A stretch of DNA of 64,000 bases from Sedimentisphaera salicampi (GTDB taxonomy: Bacteria; Planctomycetota; Phycisphaerae; Sedimentisphaerales; Sedimentisphaeraceae): the NCBI RefSeq assembly GCF_002117005.1, contig NZ_CP021023.1:2652995-2716994 (forward strand), given 5' to 3'. Positions within the stretch are counted from its first letter, which is position 1, and every line of letters starts with the position of its first letter. Position numbers and translations under genes: made by a program. A model generated the notes under the pieces. The model did no database searches. It saw nothing but the letters and a program-made list of their open reading frames with translations, and was not told where the DNA came from. Shown piece after piece: positions 7,228 through 42,512 of the stretch.

Positions 7228-7717
7228 ATAAAAACCTCTTTGAAATAGGCTAAAATCAAAAATTCCTTGGGGTAAACGCTGAAATCCTAACCGCAACGCA
7301 GGTAAATTTCAACTAAAATTTAACAGTATCAGGCCAAATATTTCCCAAACTATGCCCATTTTTTCAGAGCATTGCCTTTTGTCCACTTAGTTCTCCGCCT
7401 GCGGCGGATGGCTCGTGGCAAAATCATCAGCGAAAAATTAGAGCTGATTAGCGGCTGAAAAATATATCCCTCCGTTTCCTCCGCTGCCTCCGTGGTCAAT
7501 TTCTATTTTTTTTCCACCACTGAGGACTCGGAGGATCACGGAGGAGGATGAGATAAAGATATGGCCTGTGGCGAGTGGCAGAGCTGCAAGTCCGCCTGCG
7601 GCGGATGGCAGAGTAGCAGAGCTGCAAGTCCGCCTGCGGCGGATTGCGAGTGGCAAAATCATTAGTGAAAAATTAGTGCTGATTAGCGGTCAAAAAAAAT
7701 ATCTCCCCTCTGTGCCC
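7228..7717. other. Gene-poor gap with mosaic short repeats (left flank of IS110 element)
   Basis: No convincing gene. The stretch holds two family B units (about 7419-7470 and 7650-7705), several copies of CCGCCTGCGGCGGA, the left half of a family A-like sequence (GTCCACTTAGTTCTCCGCC at 7381) and phrases such as CCTCCGTGGTCAAT. A minus-strand frame at 7438-7662 is made only of repeat sequence and was not accepted. Confidence 0.7.
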
Positions 7718-13397: not shown

Positions 13398-13543
13398 TGT
13401 CCACTTATTCTCCACCTTCGGCGGACAGGCTCTCCGCCTGCGGCGGGTCTTCATGCGTGGCTCGGTTTAGATATCTCGTTTTGTGAAATCGCTGCGTAAT
13501 ACTAATGACAATCAGAGCCGTGCGTGGAGTCCGCCTGCGGCGG
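13398..13543. repeat. Family A palindromic repeat, copy 2
   Basis: This copy matches 9011-9139 almost base for base across the core (TTCATGCGTGGCTCGGTTTA, then ATATCTCGTTTTGTGAAATC, then AATCAGAGCCGTGCGTGGAG). The left arm has an extra CCGCC block, making it slightly longer. It runs directly into a family B unit. Confidence 0.85.
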
Positions 13544-13548
13544 ATTGC

Positions 13549-13600
13549 GAGTGGCAAAATCATTAGTGAAAAATTAGTGCAGATTAGCGGCTGAAAAATT
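13549..13600. repeat. Family B repeat unit
   Basis: This unit reads GCGAGTGGCAAAATCATTAG, then TGAAAAATTAGTGCAGATTA, then GCGGCTGAAAAATT. Eight copies occur in the window, at about 7419, 7650, 13549, 13938, 37217, 37576, 37696 and 42331, all in gaps. A second, shorter unit follows at 13938-13975. Confidence 0.8.
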
Positions 13601-13710
13601 TTCTCTCCGCCTTTTCCTATATTAAATATTTATCCTGTAAATCCTGTCAAAATTACATCTTCTCTCCGCTTCCTCCGATAACTCTCCGCCGCAGGCGGAC
13701 TGGCTCTGTC

Positions 13711-13850
13711 AAAAAAAAATATCTCCAACATCAGAGCAGGATTATGTATTGCGTTTAAGCGTCCTTCCGGCAGAGAGCTTTCCCTCATTTATGTGCCTGT
13801 CCCCCTCCAAAGTAAATTTGATTTATACCGAGCCTGTCCGCCGGAGGCGG
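13711..13850. repeat. Family C repeat, copy 1 (about 140 bp)
   Basis: This copy runs from AATATCTCCAACATCAGAGC through GCGTTTAAGCGTCCTTCCGG and TTATGTGCCTGTCCCC to ATTTATACCGAGCCTGTCCG plus a CCGGAGGCGG arm. It matches 37391-37530 with few differences. I see no open reading frame conserved between the copies. Confidence 0.8.
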
Positions 13851-14167
13851 TCTAATCTCTGATGTAAAAGAGAGTTAAATATCGGAGGAAGCGGAGATAA
13901 CGGAGAGGATTAAAAAATTAAAACTTCGCCTCCTCCAAATCATTAGTGAAAAATTAGCGGGAATTAGTGGTTCGACATACCCCTTAGTGAATCTTATCGA
14001 TCCTCAGTGGCTGAGATATTTCAGAGCTGCTCAGCGGCTGAGCGTAAGGCCTCATTTACAAAAATCTTGTAATCAATACTACTGCAATTATAATGCTCAT
14101 TTTTGCGAGCCCCTTGGCGGGTTGTATTGTTGAAGCCGCCCAATCGAATGAGAATTAAAGGTTTAAT

Positions 14168-21364: not shown

Positions 21365-21438
21365 GGGGCCGTAGCTCAATTGGTTAGAGCATCGGACTGT
21401 CGATCCGAAGGCTGAGGGTTCGAGTCCCTTCGGCCTCG
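21365..21438 (+). tRNA. tRNA-Asp (GTC), copy 1
   Basis: A 74-nt cloverleaf: acceptor GGGGCCG with CGGCCTC, D arm GCTC/GAGC, anticodon loop CTGTCGA giving GTC, T loop TTCGAGT. The discriminator is G, as expected for Asp. CCA is not encoded. Confidence 0.97.
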
Positions 21439-21464
21439 CTTATCACCGCTAATAGAAAAGAAAT

Positions 21465-21538
21465 GGGGCCGTAGCTCAATTGGTTAGAGCATCGGACTGT
21501 CGATCCGAAGGCTGAGGGTTCGAGTCCCTTCGGCCTCG
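21465..21538 (+). tRNA. tRNA-Asp (GTC), copy 2
   Basis: Identical to copy 1 over all 74 nt and starting exactly 100 bases later, with a 26-base spacer. The pair is probably one transcript arising from tandem duplication. Confidence 0.97.
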
Positions 21539-21579
21539 TTTCATAACGCTCTGCGGGAAGAGATTCCTTCAGGGCGTTT

Positions 21580-37042: not shown

Positions 37043-37923
37043 TTCAGGCAATTTGTACGCAGCTTCCGAGGCGAACCAGTGCCAGCGCCGATCAATACGA
37101 AACTAATCAGATATAATCCGCAGATTACGCAGATTGCACGGATTTTGTGTGGCCTGTGGCCTGTGGCGAGTAGCTCGTGGCTCGTGGCAAGTTGGCTTGT
37201 GGCAAGCAGCCAGCGGCTCGTGGCAAAATCATTAGCGAGAAATTAGTGCCGATTAGCGGCTAAAAATCCCTCTCTGCCTTTTCCCTATTAAATATTTATC
37301 CTGTCAATCCTTGCCCCGTAGCCAAAGCGGTTCGGGGCTGTAAATCCTGTCAAAAAAATATCTCCTCCGTTTCCTCCGATAGCTCCGTGTAAAAAAATAT
37401 CTCCAACATCAGAGCAGGATTGTGTATTGCGTTGAAGCGTCCTTGCCGGCAGAGAGCCTTCCCACATTTATGTGCCTGTCCCCCTTCAATGTAAATTTGA
37501 TTTATACCGAGCTTGTCCGCCGAAGGCGGAGAGGGATGTGATAAAGATAGTGGCCTGTGGCTCGTGGCAGAGTAGCTCGTGGCAAAATCATTAGTGAAAA
37601 ATTAGTGCGGATTAGCGGCTTAAAATCTTTCTCATATTCAATAATCCTGTAGATCCTGTAAATCCTGTCTAAAAAATAAAACTCCGCCTCCTCCGAATCA
37701 TTAGTGAAAAATTAGCGGGGATTAGTGGCTGAAAATTCCCTTCTCATCCTTCGCGTCCTTCGTGGTTTAATACGAATTTTTCAAAAAAATTAAAAAAATC
37801 GGCGGAAATTTTATTTTTTCCTTGAATTCTCCGCGCGAATTCGGTAAGTTCAGTCCGGAAAGGGTAACTGGCGTTATTTGGGGATGATATAAAAAGTTAA
37901 TATTTTTTTATCCGGAGATAAAT
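37043..37923. other. Repeat-rich gap before the GLUG protein
   Basis: About 880 bases without a gene. It contains ATAATCCGCAGATTACGCAG (37110), runs of GTGGC-type phrases (GGCCTGTGGCGAGTAGCTCG), family B units at about 37217-37268, 37576-37627 and 37696-37736, a family C copy (37391-37530) and TCCTGTAAATCCTGTC pieces like family D ends. The last 120 bases are the leader of the next gene. Confidence 0.75.
37391..37530. repeat. Family C repeat, copy 2 (about 140 bp)
   Basis: This is the partner of 13711-13850, same orientation, about 24 kb away, with roughly ten differences by eye. Both end in a CCGCC(N)GGCGG hairpin arm and both are flanked by family B units. Confidence 0.8.
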
Positions 37924-40521
37924 ATGTGTACCCTTAGAGTTTCCCTTCTTGCAGCTATTGCCGCAGCAGGCATTGCATTCGGTTTCGCCGCAGGCGACGG
38001 CACAGTAAACAACCCATACCAAATCTCCACCCCTGACCACCTCGAAGCGGTGAACAACGACCTCTCCGCCCATTACGTCCTGACGAATGACATCGACCTC
38101 TCGGGAAGAACCTACGAACGAGCTGTTATCGCACCGGACACCGATTACAGCGATGCTGGTTTCAACGGCACATCCTTTTCCTGCTCATTTGACGGGGCGG
38201 GCTACAAGATTTTGAACCTCACAATTGACACATTAGACGTAACAGAAAATTATCCCGGCTATCTCGGCCTTTTTGGAAAAATTGATGGACAAGTTGTAAA
38301 TTTTGGTATTGAAAATGCCCTGATTACTGGTGGCGATGATTCAGGCCATCTCGGTGGCCTGTGTGCAATGAATTCGGGCGGCGCAATCGAGAACTGTTAT
38401 GCAACCGGCTCTGTCTCGGGCGGCTCGCATCTCGGCGGCGTATGTGGGTATAATGGCGGAACAATCACAAACTGCTATTCCACCGGTTCTGTTTCGGGAG
38501 ATTATAAACTAGGCGGCCTGTGCGGATATAATTATGAAGGCACAATCGAGAACTGTTATGCGACCGGTTCTGTTTCGGGAGGTGATAGTCTCGGCGGCCT
38601 TTGTGGATGGAATTCGAACGGCACAATCGAGAACTGCTATGCGACCGGCTCTGTTTCAGGCGAAGATGATGCGGACAACCTAGGCGGCCTGTGCGGATAT
38701 AATGGTAATGGAACAATATTAAATTCCTTTTGGGATAGAGATGCTAGCGGGATGATTACAAGTGATGGCGGGAAGCCTAAATCCATTGATAAAATGAAAA
38801 CTATGACTACTTTTATAGGCTGGAATGATGGAAGCTGGACAATAGATGAAGGCAATGATCACCCCCGCCTTGCATGGGAAAATGCTCAAGGTTCTGTTAT
38901 TACTACAGGCTTACCAACTAAAACTTACAGCGGCGAAGGGACAGAAGAAAAGCCTTTCGAAATCTCTGATTCTCAGGATTTAGTCTGCCTCAGCAATCGC
39001 TTGCCAGACTGGGATAAACATTTCGTTTTAACCAATGATATAGATATGCAGGGCATAAATTATTATCCTATAACGACTTTCAGCGGCAGTTTTGACGGCA
39101 GCGGATTTAAAATTTCTAATCTACAAATTAAGAGTGAAAATATAGGTCTAAGGTCTTATCTCGGCCTTTTTGGTGAAATATATGGAGGAGAAGTTCGAAA
39201 CATAGAAATACAAAGTGCTAATATTATAGGCGACGAAAATTCTCGCTATATAGGAGCTTTATGTGGAAGAAAAGAAGGTGGCTTAATTAAGAACTGCTAT
39301 GCTAATAGTAATATTTCAGGCAAATATCGCCTCGGCAGTTTATGCGGATACAATTCATCGGGCACAATTACAAACTGCTACGCTAAAGGCTCTGTTTTGG
39401 GGAAGACTTACCTTGGCGGCATTTGCGGATTGAATCATAGTGGCACAATTGATAGTTGCTATGCAAAAAGCAACTTGTCGGGCGGGGAAAATTCCAGTTC
39501 TCTTGGTGGCTTATGCGGAAAAAATTCTGGTACAATCTCGAACAGTTACACGACTGGCTTTGTTTTAGGGGGAGATTATTCAAATGGCCTCGGCGGTTTG
39601 TGTGGCAGAAATTATGATGGTACAATCTCAAACTGCTATGCCATCGGCTCTGTTTCCGGAGGCGATGATTCAGATTATCTTGGCGGCCTGTGTGGATTTA
39701 ATAATGACGGCACAATCATGAATTGCTATGCAACGGGCTCTGTTTCGGGAGATCATTACGTTGGTGGTTTGTGTGCAAAGAATTATGGCACAATTATGAA
39801 CTCCTTCTGGGATAAAGAGGCAAGCGGAATGAATCCCAGTGCGGGCGGAACGGGGCTTACTACAGCCGAAATGCAGGCGCAGAGTACGTTTACCGATGCC
39901 GGCTGGGATTTTGCGGGCGAAGCGGCTAACGGCGAGGAAGATATATGGTTTATGCCGGCGGGGAGCTATCCGCTGCTTAACGGCGTAACGGATTTGAAGG
40001 ACGGGATTGAGATTGCCCAGCTCGCTGTTGCCGATCGCCGGCGGGTTGGCCGGAGCGAATTTGAATACGACATCACGCTAAAGCTGGTGAACGGGGGCGG
40101 GGATATCAGCTCGGGGCAGATAAGCCTTGCGGCAACGCCTGCGAATATCGAGATAGCGGCGGGCGGTTCGCTCGGTCTCGGCGCTCTTGCCGGCGGGCAG
40201 GCGGGCTTCTCCACGGGCGAGCTTACGTTGCGGATAGACCGCTCCGTGCGAACGGACGAGAGCCGGCTCACATGGCAGGCAGAGCTCAGCCGCGGGCCGG
40301 GGCCGGCATCGATGGAGGTTGTAACGTGCAGCTTTGAGCCGGAGCTGTTCGGCGAAGCGGGCCTCGGCTGGCCGGAGCTTATGGAGCTTGCAGAGAGCTG
40401 GCTCGGCGAAGGGATTGCCGATGTAAACTTTGACGGGGAGGTGAACTATATCGACCTCGCAATCATCGGCGATGGACTGGATATGGAAGATTTCGAAAAC
40501 TTCGCAGACGAGATCTTTTAG
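37924..40521 (+). CDS. Secreted GLUG-repeat protein with dockerin-like C-terminus
   Basis: An 865-residue exported protein. After a signal peptide (about 1-23, LLAAIAAAGIAFGFAAG) it has two similar halves, each opening with PYQISTPDHLEAVNNDLSAH- or PFEISDSQDLVCLSNRL-type segments and SFDGAGYKILNLTI, followed by many GLUG repeats of about 22-26 residues such as GTIENCYATGSVSGGDSLGG. At least twelve repeats are seen. Nearly every one has a Cys in NCYA and another in GLCG, unusual for secreted repeats. Residues from about 690 form a beta-domain. The last 35 residues contain DVNFDGEVNYIDLAIIG, a dockerin-type calcium loop. GLUG repeats occur in adhesins and IgA1 protease-like proteins. A surface-binding role is likely but unproved. 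Confidence 0.88.
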   Translation: MCTLRVSLLAAIAAAGIAFGFAAGDGTVNNPYQISTPDHLEAVNNDLSAHYVLTNDIDLSGRTYERAVIAPDTDYSDAGFNGTSFSCSFDGAGYKILNLTIDTLDVTENYPGYLGLFGKIDGQVVNFGIENALITGGDDSGHLGGLCAMNSGGAIENCYATGSVSGGSHLGGVCGYNGGTITNCYSTGSVSGDYKLGGLCGYNYEGTIENCYATGSVSGGDSLGGLCGWNSNGTIENCYATGSVSGEDDADNLGGLCGYNGNGTILNSFWDRDASGMITSDGGKPKSIDKMKTMTTFIGWNDGSWTIDEGNDHPRLAWENAQGSVITTGLPTKTYSGEGTEEKPFEISDSQDLVCLSNRLPDWDKHFVLTNDIDMQGINYYPITTFSGSFDGSGFKISNLQIKSENIGLRSYLGLFGEIYGGEVRNIEIQSANIIGDENSRYIGALCGRKEGGLIKNCYANSNISGKYRLGSLCGYNSSGTITNCYAKGSVLGKTYLGGICGLNHSGTIDSCYAKSNLSGGENSSSLGGLCGKNSGTISNSYTTGFVLGGDYSNGLGGLCGRNYDGTISNCYAIGSVSGGDDSDYLGGLCGFNNDGTIMNCYATGSVSGDHYVGGLCAKNYGTIMNSFWDKEASGMNPSAGGTGLTTAEMQAQSTFTDAGWDFAGEAANGEEDIWFMPAGSYPLLNGVTDLKDGIEIAQLAVADRRRVGRSEFEYDITLKLVNGGGDISSGQISLAATPANIEIAAGGSLGLGALAGGQAGFSTGELTLRIDRSVRTDESRLTWQAELSRGPGPASMEVVTCSFEPELFGEAGLGWPELMELAESWLGEGIADVNFDGEVNYIDLAIIGDGLDMEDFENFADEIF

Positions 40522-40558: not shown

Positions 40559-40715
40559 GACAGGATTTACAGGATTTACAGGATTGTTTTTAATGTGGGA
40601 TTTTTTAAAGTAAGATAAGGATATGATTATCGGCGCTTAGGATTTATGTTTGAAACAATGCTGAAAAATTAAGCCAATCTATTTATCTCATCCTGTCAAT
40701 CTTGTAAATCCTGTC
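40559..40715. repeat. Family D repeat, copy 1, with inverted ends
   Basis: The left end (from 40559, GACAGGATTTACAGGATTTA) and the right end (to 40715, TCTTGTAAATCCTGTC) are inverted repeats of 26 bases with two mismatches. The inner part (GATATGATTATCGGCGCTTA and GAAACAATGCTGAAAAATTA) is shared with copy 2. The right end stops 10 bases before the ATG of the GxxExxY gene, so this repeat supplies its upstream region. Confidence 0.85.
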
Positions 40716-40725
40716 GGAAATAAAA

Positions 40726-41097
40726 ATGAAACACCAAGACCTAACGCGAAAAATAATTGCCTGCTGCTATACGGTATATAATGAGATGGGATTCGGCTTT
40801 CTCGAATCGGTCTATGAGAAATGTTTGCTGATAGAGCTTGAAAAAGAGGGCATAAAAGCCGCCGGCCAAAGCCCGATTAAAGTTTATTACAGCGGCATTT
40901 GTGTTGGCGATTTTTGGGCTGATATTCTTGTGGAGGATGAGGTTATTGTAGAGCTGAAGTCTGTAACGACGGTTGCAGATGCGCACAGTGTGCAGCTGGT
41001 GAACTATCTCTCAGCTACCGGCAAGGATGTAGGGCTTTTGATAAACTTCGGGCCTGAGGGTGTTGATGTGAAGAGGAAAGTGAAAAAGCTTGAATGA
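40726..41097 (+). CDS. GxxExxY family protein
   Basis: A 123-residue protein of the GxxExxY family, a small PD-(D/E)XK nuclease-like fold of unknown role. The name motif is GFLESVYE at about residues 24-31. The nuclease-like core is DFWADILVEDEVIVELKSV, with the acidic residues and the E-x-K triad typical of the fold. The start ATG lacks a clear ribosome site; its leader comes from the family D repeat. Copies of the same repeat lie on both sides (40559-40715 and 41199-41345). Such genes often occur singly in repeat-rich gaps or rRNA intervening sequences, which suggests mobility, but no mechanism is known to me. Confidence 0.88.
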   Translation: MKHQDLTRKIIACCYTVYNEMGFGFLESVYEKCLLIELEKEGIKAAGQSPIKVYYSGICVGDFWADILVEDEVIVELKSVTTVADAHSVQLVNYLSATGKDVGLLINFGPEGVDVKRKVKKLE

Positions 41098-41198
41098 GAC
41101 AGGATTAACATGTTTATTGTTAATTTGGGATATGGGATTTTTGGACAGGATTAACAGGATTTACAGGATTGTTTTTAATATGAGATATGAGATTTTTG

Positions 41199-41345
41199 GA
41201 CAGGATTTACAGGATTATTTTAATATGAGATTTTTTAAAGTAAGATAAAGATATGATTATCGGGGCTTAGCATTTATGTTTGAGACAATGCTGAAAAATT
41301 AAGCCAATCTATTTATCTCATCCTGTCAATCTTGTAAATCCTGTC
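41199..41345. repeat. Family D repeat, copy 2
   Basis: This copy matches copy 1 with about five differences over the last 127 bases; the left arm is one 9-base unit shorter. Same orientation. It is followed by TAAAATATCGG, where copy 1 is followed by TAAAAATGAAAC, the start of the gene. Confidence 0.85.
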
Positions 41346-41370
41346 AGAAATAAAATATCGGTTGGCCTAC

Positions 41371-41472
41371 AACTTAAAACTTAAAACTTAAAACTTACGA
41401 CTTATAACTTAAAACTTAAAACTTAAAACTTAAAACTTACGACTTATAACTTAAAACTTAAAACTTAAAACT
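41371..41472. repeat. Heptamer tract (ACTTAAA)n with 35-bp higher-order period
   Basis: About 100 bases of ACTTAAA units interrupted regularly by ACTTACGACTTATA, so that blocks of about 35 bases repeat. It ends 33 bases before the next ATG and contains many TAA stops in several frames. It could affect spacing of promoter elements or be simple slippage. Confidence 0.85.
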
Positions 41473-42006: not shown

Positions 42007-42512
42007 TCCGCAGATTACGCAGGGGCAGCAAGCGGTGCGACGTCCGCCGTGGCGGATACGCTAGGCATTCGCTGCGGCCAGACTGTGATGGATATTTGCT
42101 GTCCACTTATTTCTCCGCCGAAGGCGGATTCATGCGTGGCTCGGTTTAAACATTCATTAGTTTCGTAAAATCGCTGCGTAATACTAACGACAATCAGAGC
42201 CGCACGTGGAGGTCCGCCGAAGGCGGAGAGGGATGTGATAAATTAGACAGGATTAACAAGATTTACAGGATGAGATAAAGATTTCAGATTAATTTTAAAT
42301 TGGCTTTCCCCGTCAAAAGAACTTATCTTAAATCATTAGAGAAAAATTAGCGGGGATTAGCGGCTGAAAACATCTTTCTCATATTCAATAATCCTGTCAA
42401 AAATATCCCCTTAGTGCATCTTAGCGAAGCTTAGCGGCTTATAAATCTCAGCGCGGGTTAGCGGCTGAAAAAACTCAACCTTGATAATTTGTTTTAACGG
42501 CTCAGGCATTTA
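42007..42512. other. Repeat-rich gap after the PEP-CTERM gene
   Basis: It begins with AATCCGCAGATTACGCAG, then holds a family A palindrome, a family D-like end (GACAGGATTAACAAGATTTA at 42244), a family B unit (about 42331-42372) and phrases of the TTAGCGAAGCTTAGCGGC type (42409-42475). No gene is present. Confidence 0.75.
42099..42228. repeat. Family A palindromic repeat, copy 4
   Basis: This copy begins CTGTCCACTTATTTCTCCGC, with the core TTTCGTAAAATCGCTGCGTA and AACGACAATCAGAGCCGCAC, and ends GTCCGCCGAAGGCGG. Its core has a short insertion (CATTCATTAG) compared with copies 1 and 2. Confidence 0.85.

Follow-up and report, generated by a model that had tools for sequence, protein, structure and literature searches.

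A GxxExxY nuclease gene and its word-like repeat arms appear to form a very small mobile DNA element of a type not described before

In a 64,000-nucleotide stretch of the Sedimentisphaera salicampi genome (hereafter the window), a small gene of the GxxExxY family lies among structured repeats, and the question arises whether gene and repeats belong together and, if so, as what. The first-pass annotation had placed the gene between two direct repeat copies, the left one ending 10 bases before the ATG, and had seen the same arm sequences standing alone elsewhere in the window. All three observations hold: the intact gene occupies 40726-41097 between direct copies (40588-40725 and 41218-41355) that are 95% identical over 138 nt, the last base of the right arm of the left copy is 40715, and lone arms are found at 13632, 37644-37669 and 42246-42271. 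Once the arms are counted, the hairpin pair extends outward to 40559 on the left and 41345 on the right. The features of the locus and the lone arms are as follows.

40559-40715, plus strand: left gene-free hairpin, arms with the loop between them
40559-40585, plus strand: left arm of the left hairpin, GACAGGATTTACAGGATTTACAGGATT
40690-40715, plus strand: right arm of the left hairpin, ATCCTGTCAATCTTGTAAATCCTGTC
40726-41097, plus strand: GxxExxY gene, 123 aa, predicted PD-(D/E)xK nuclease fold, motif residues intact
41098-41170, plus strand: extra left-arm copies after the gene, GACAGGATTAACA at 41098 and GACAGGATTAACAGGATTTACAGGATT at 41144-41170
41199-41345, plus strand: right gene-free hairpin, matching the left hairpin at 95% identity over 138 nt
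41371-41472, plus strand: (AACTTAA)n tandem array of 7-bp units adjoining the unit, of the 7-bp kind found around S23 genes
13632-13648, plus strand: lone right arm, ACAGGAT word family, within a repeat mosaic
37644-37669, plus strand: lone right arm, ATCCTGTAGATCCTGTAAATCCTGTC, within a repeat mosaic
42246-42271, plus strand: lone left arm, GACAGGATTAACAAGATTTACAGGAT, downstream of the unit

The arms of both hairpins are made up of the iterated word ACAGGATTT with a period of 9. Each hairpin has a perfect outer stem of 18 bp, which reaches 25 bp in the left copy, and the minimum free energies calculated for DNA are -23.9 (left) and -22.6 (right) kcal/mol, with a z score of -5.1 for both and 0 of 200 shuffles as good. 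The sequence ATCCTGTAAATCCTGTC is matched 12 times in the window with at most two mismatches, compared with 0.01 matches expected from shuffles, and the 3.19-Mb genome contains 10 exact copies of the arm word and none of the reversed pattern. Chance or an assembly artefact as the source of the window repeats is ruled out by the shuffles, the reversed-pattern controls and independent genomes. The GxxExxY gene is the only plausible gene between the two hairpins, and the unit is flanked by protein genes rather than being located within 23S rRNA. The open reading frame directly upstream (37924-40521) encodes a protein of 865 aa that contains numerous internal repeats and whose C-terminus is dockerin-like. 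At the corresponding locus, the sister species G199 (L247) retains the right arm and the adjacent gene, together with only one or two units of the AACTTAA array.

The protein itself is readily assigned. It matches TIGR04256 with 141.3 bits (cut-off 35; E = 1.6e-41) and PF13366 (PDDEXK_3) with 138.8 bits (cut-off 22; E = 1.3e-40). The invariant or nearly invariant columns of the family, G24, E27, Y30, D66, E76, K78, Q90 and Y94, are all intact in the window protein and follow the order known from RecB, Cas4 and lambda exonuclease (GxxE, D, ExK, QxxxY); the full motif is present in 151 of 159 GxxExxY proteins. A structure predicted with a pLDDT of 93 has Cas4 SSO0001 as its best structural match (Z = 9.7), followed at lower rank by lambda-type exonucleases, restriction enzymes and Hjc; a search by sequence found no solved structure of a relative. 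Based on motif and model, the GxxExxY protein is predicted to be a minimal RecB/Cas4/lambda-exonuclease-like PD-(D/E)xK nuclease. This is the sole family that the gene matches, and the HUH tyrosine transposases of the IS200/IS605 group are not among its matches. In the sampled phylum half of the genomes encode GxxExxY proteins, with up to 15 copies per genome. Cargo of phages or plasmids was considered and rejected, as PHROGs yielded no match and a search with one relative as query retrieved 0 of 50,697 phages and 8 of 72,556 plasmid records. A defence system was likewise rejected: the window protein has no match in PADLOC, and one relative has a weak match to Cas4 (E = 7.6e-4).

In addition to a remnant, the genome from which the window is taken harbors four intact GxxExxY genes. 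Inspection of the flanks showed each of the five to be bordered left and right by word-like arms, yet with different words: ACAGGAT at the window locus, CGGAG at L009, CACAGAG at L010, CACTAAT/ATTAGTG at L012 and CACAGATT at the remnant L013. The four words of the intact genes are also found away from genes, as arms in intergenic mosaics. At L005, CACAGAG arms lie outside ACAGGAT arms, which in turn lie outside a CACTAAT arm; this is the one clear case in which word families are strictly nested like parentheses, and the count of such nesting is illustrative only. Within the window, intergenic mosaics of several word families occupy positions 7394-7708, 13430-13990, 37199-37750 and 42150-42470, and those at 13.7-14.0 and 37.4-37.7 kb have segments of 87-96% identity in common. 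For each of the GxxExxY-type mosaic families (ACAGGAT, CACTAAT, CACAGAG and CGGAG) the genome contains an intact gene with that word.

Arms around GxxExxY genes are widespread. The left flank of each gene was aligned to the reverse complement of its right flank, and a score of at least 20 was taken to indicate matching arms. By this measure 64.5% of 93 genes in the phylum have arms, as opposed to 0.8% of 654 shifted intervals from the same loci (p = 5e-36) and 4.3% of 186 flank pairs swapped between loci (p = 1e-25). In a collection of named genomes with 76 usable loci from 18 named phyla the proportion was 50%, compared with 0.2% of 585 controls, a figure that is biased towards the CRYRRAG word class by the use of a sub-clade as query; the sub-clade was chosen because an alignment of diverse proteins was too variable for scanning the collection. 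Clear arms (score of at least 18) were present in 13 of the 18 named phyla, including archaea of the Methanobacteriota. Thus, the proposed enrichment of repeats around GxxExxY genes was borne out. Among other small ORFs in the same loci 2% reached a score of 20, the top one being an unmasked GxxExxY gene. Ordinary terminator hairpins were dismissed as an explanation since they would not match across a gene, and other small ORFs score at background level. Rfam families produced no matches here. Clear arms are missing from about 30-35% of the phylum's GxxExxY genes and, elsewhere, from as many as half.

A typical unit has a median span of 503 bp (445-673 bp for the 10-90% range), and its arms consist of two to four copies of an 8-10 bp word which is one and the same on both sides of a gene; the unit L023, for example, reads ACCACAGAGGCACAGAGGACACGGAG - gene - CTCCGTGTCCTCTGTGTCTCTGTGGT. 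The usual layout elsewhere is left arm, gene, right arm, and the two complete hairpins in direct orientation are a local peculiarity of the window, whose locus is a composite larger than the usual unit. The first-pass annotation had described two full direct copies framing the gene, which is correct for the window, whereas inverted arms around the gene are the general arrangement. Its notion of a composite of nuclease and structured repeat is supported, except that the repeat sequence is not fixed: the word differs by nuclease lineage.

How closely the word follows the lineage was evident from a protein tree of 105 loci with clear arms, 76 of which were assigned to the CRYRRAG class and 22 to the GAT-type class, with seven unclassified; the word classes had been set after inspection of the arms, and proteins were not used for this purpose. 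Word class changes once on this tree, compared with a mean of 20.2 changes for shuffled labels, none of 500 shuffles being as low. Both classes occur side by side within single genomes (G180, G081, G185, G142 and G012), so that the host does not account for the concordance of clade and word. On the tree the window protein clusters with L095 (66% identity, 97% support), the word of which is also ACAGGAT. Linked inheritance of gene and arms explains part of the concordance and could account for it alone. Among CRYRRAG loci, the left arm is more similar to the right arm of its own locus than to arms from elsewhere (median 26 versus 13). The word has been preserved across phyla whereas the rest of the flanking DNA has diverged, suggesting constraint on the word itself.

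The repeats are also tied to the gene at the level of whole genomes, as the first-pass annotation had implied. The common word pattern ACCACRRAGN{1,2}CACRRAGN{1,2}CACRRAG is present in 61 of 199 genomes of the phylum, and its reversed form in none. The gene was found in 54 of these 61 genomes; seven contain the pattern without a detected GxxExxY gene, and 96 of the 199 have neither. This corresponds to an odds ratio of 17.6 (p = 6e-15) with kinship of the genomes ignored. As in REP/RAYT systems, the repeats flanking the gene also occur alone in many copies, the extreme being G044 with up to about 420 pattern matches and two GxxExxY genes. Gene-free hairpins of G178 and G001 have common arms and unrelated loops, and loops in G044 are mostly not shared; the gene-free hairpins of G004 and the window pair share both arms and interior. 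The sharing of arms without loops is unlike simple copying of one internally deleted element.

Comparison of related genomes revealed the unit in the presence and absence states. The search for empty sites that the first-pass annotation had called for was successful at the groL-dnaJ junction (L264-L270, L350), where seven species of one genus differ: two contain a unit of 485 bp, three have 47-77 bp between the genes, and two have other content. The empty sites are without arms as well as without gene. The other content includes an ORF that we read as macro-domain-like in G225 and a different short ORF in G172, and in G095 an S23 unit is located about 2 kb upstream of the junction. Between atpA and atpG, the species of the window has a decayed GAT-type unit and a congeneric species has, at the same junction, a unit of the CACGAAG type whose gene is truncated and belongs to the other clade; none is found in 12 other relatives. 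The window's species also has a unit between rmlB and rmlA, two genes that are adjacent without a unit in G208. The alignment of two loci from different families, L023 and L045, covers 444 bp; it begins at the outer edge of the left arm and stops at about that of the right arm, and the DNA outside this unit is unrelated. The gene that it holds is GxxExxY and not a transposase gene of the kind which defines insertion sequences. The data show that gene and arms belong together, that word class follows protein clade and that the unit is either wholly there or wholly missing.

Target-site duplications were not visible at 59 loci, where direct repeats of 2-9 bp were not above expectation; sister genomes share about 85-89% identity in genes, and intergenic divergence is too great to fix insertion edges or duplicated bases. 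Some element families make no target-site duplication. The genomes were sampled at one per species, and no transposition event was caught among them. In a few loci, for example L026 and L072, flank similarity goes on outside the arms in inverted form (e.g. gatgaggatgtc and gacatcctcatc), which is not expected from simple insertion.

We propose, with a probability of roughly two in three, that the GxxExxY gene and its repeats constitute one very small mobile element, with a nuclease that acts on the word-bearing ends of the element itself; word recognition, cleavage, transposition and action in trans are parts of this mobile-element reading that we infer. Such an element, about 450-670 bp long in most relatives, would comprise a single nuclease gene inside inverted arms, and the arms, each an 8-10 bp word repeated two to four times, would bound it. 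Most likely, the nuclease would recognise the word array or the hairpin formed by the words. It would then cut at the arms, whereupon the unit would insert between genes and be moved or copied. Probably it would also mobilise gene-free hairpins with the same word in trans, a model that fits their abundance. The window copy is a composite, its gene being located between two such gene-free hairpins.

That last feature can be read in another way. If the hairpins spread by other means, GxxExxY might be a passenger or homing-type gene which inserts into, or is retained in, hairpins of its preferred word. The position of the window gene between two complete hairpins is compatible with such a guest, as are the large excess of gene-free hairpins over genes (about 420 versus two in G044), the genomes with the pattern and no gene, and the frequently unrelated loops of gene-free hairpins that have the same arms. 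We nevertheless regard a passenger gene as unlikely. Where related copies with the gene stand at unrelated sites, they have the entire unit in common, both arms included. At empty sites the arms are missing along with the gene, and the match of word class to protein clade extends across phyla, which argues against a random guest.

The location of units between genes of operons (groL-dnaJ, rmlB-rmlA, atpA-atpG) is in line with a function of the arms in RNA, as in 23S rRNA intervening sequences (IVS): folding and processing of the transcript would protect the host operon, and the nuclease would have no part in spreading. Architecture and size resemble those of the Coxiella IVS of 428 nt with its 28-bp terminal inverted repeat and S23 ORF (PMC4990558), and arms of the same kind occur at S23 genes. 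A stem, however, needs complementarity and not an iterated word that stays the same in members of one protein clade from different phyla, and no Rfam family matches; we therefore consider this interpretation improbable. Iterated words are, on the other hand, typical of protein-binding iterons, and the arrays might be operator-like sites of a nuclease which regulates itself or serves the host, for instance in defence, without being mobile. A Cas4-like fold could suit such a role, considering the weak PADLOC match of the one relative. Operators are hardly expected to form hundreds of gene-free hairpins per genome, as in some species, to be inverted on both sides of a gene, or to come, go and move to unrelated sites as a unit; near-absence from plasmids and phages in the search with one relative and the lack of a PADLOC match for the window protein also speak against defence. 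Of the explanations considered, we deem this one very improbable.

Several known systems resemble the proposed mobile element in part. In REP/RAYT and TIRYT systems (REPtrons, TIRtrons) a gene lies in palindromic or inverted repeats, and gene-free hairpins are thought to be mobilised in trans (PMC3733652). Like GxxExxY units, they combine a small single gene in repeats with scattered intergenic gene-free hairpins. The enzyme of RAYT and TIRYT is of the HUH tyrosine type, whereas GxxExxY is PD-(D/E)xK, and their repeats are GTAG-tagged palindromes or single terminal inverted repeats instead of arms with iterated 8-10 bp words. Insertion sequences and MITEs likewise have terminal inverted repeats around one gene and non-autonomous copies. 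By contrast, GxxExxY units have no known transposase domain and, at the 59 loci, no target-site duplication; their arms are iterated words, and the loops of gene-free copies are often unrelated. The RecB/Cas4/lambda-exonuclease branch has fold and motif order (GxxE..D..ExK..QxxxY) in common with GxxExxY, but GxxExxY proteins are shorter (about 120-135 aa) and encoded alone in a repeat-bounded unit rather than in an operon for CRISPR, helicase or recombination functions. The 23S rRNA IVS are similar in size (about 430-500 nt), in their one ORF of approximately 120 codons and in their terminal inverted repeats of about 28 bp; they differ in residing within rRNA genes and encoding the unrelated S23 protein, while the GxxExxY unit is found between protein genes and encodes a nuclease. 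The Coxiella IVS is itself a suspected selfish element (PMC4990558). A search of openly licensed literature returned no relevant paper for six repeat words and two unrelated papers for GxxExxY.

Our analysis adds to the comparison with IVS that intergenic S23 genes carry arms of 7-bp words. In the same phylum, S23 four-helix-bundle genes (TIGR02436) reached a score of at least 20 in 31 of 45 loci; in the initial batch of 27 loci, 3.7% of the shifted intervals did so. Identity along all S23 arms peaks at lags of 7 and 14 (0.48 and 0.44; background about 0.25), whereas GxxExxY arms have a broad peak at lags 8-10. A published study presents the TAACTGA heptamer repeats of Beggiatoaceae as direct repeats that have no partner gene, and no mechanism was evident there (PMC4679880). 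These heptamers and the cyanobacterial STRRs are, like the GxxExxY words, short, iterated, intergenic and scattered phylogenetically; their period is 7, which here marks S23 genes, as opposed to 8-10 for GxxExxY. S23 units could thus be a source of heptamer repeats such as TAACTGA which have lacked an explanation.

It is tempting, if still tentative, to go one step further and see in the GxxExxY units a new class of transposable element, in which a lone Cas4/RecB-like PD-(D/E)xK nuclease would read iterated words or hairpins with branch-specific words, in parallel with an S23 class using 7-bp words, both classes together being the source of a large part of those word-like and heptamer repeats between genes that have lacked an explanation. 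If true, the nuclease-word and S23-heptamer classes would explain a good deal of such repeats in bacteria. A common gene family of unknown role gains a concrete repeat partner and a testable activity, and widespread word-like intergenic repeats, including the heptamers left without a mechanism in the published study, gain a possible origin. A protein-to-word code that varies by clade in a nuclease of 120 residues would, if real, help to learn how compact nucleases choose a DNA sequence or structure.

The 45 S23 loci in which arms of 7-bp words were sought are L294-L323 and L349-L363, among them the S23 gene of the window's own genome (L295; G000:C1:2182265-2182585). A further repeat in the window, at 21365-21550, consists of two nearly identical tRNA-like genes in tandem (94% over 86 nt).
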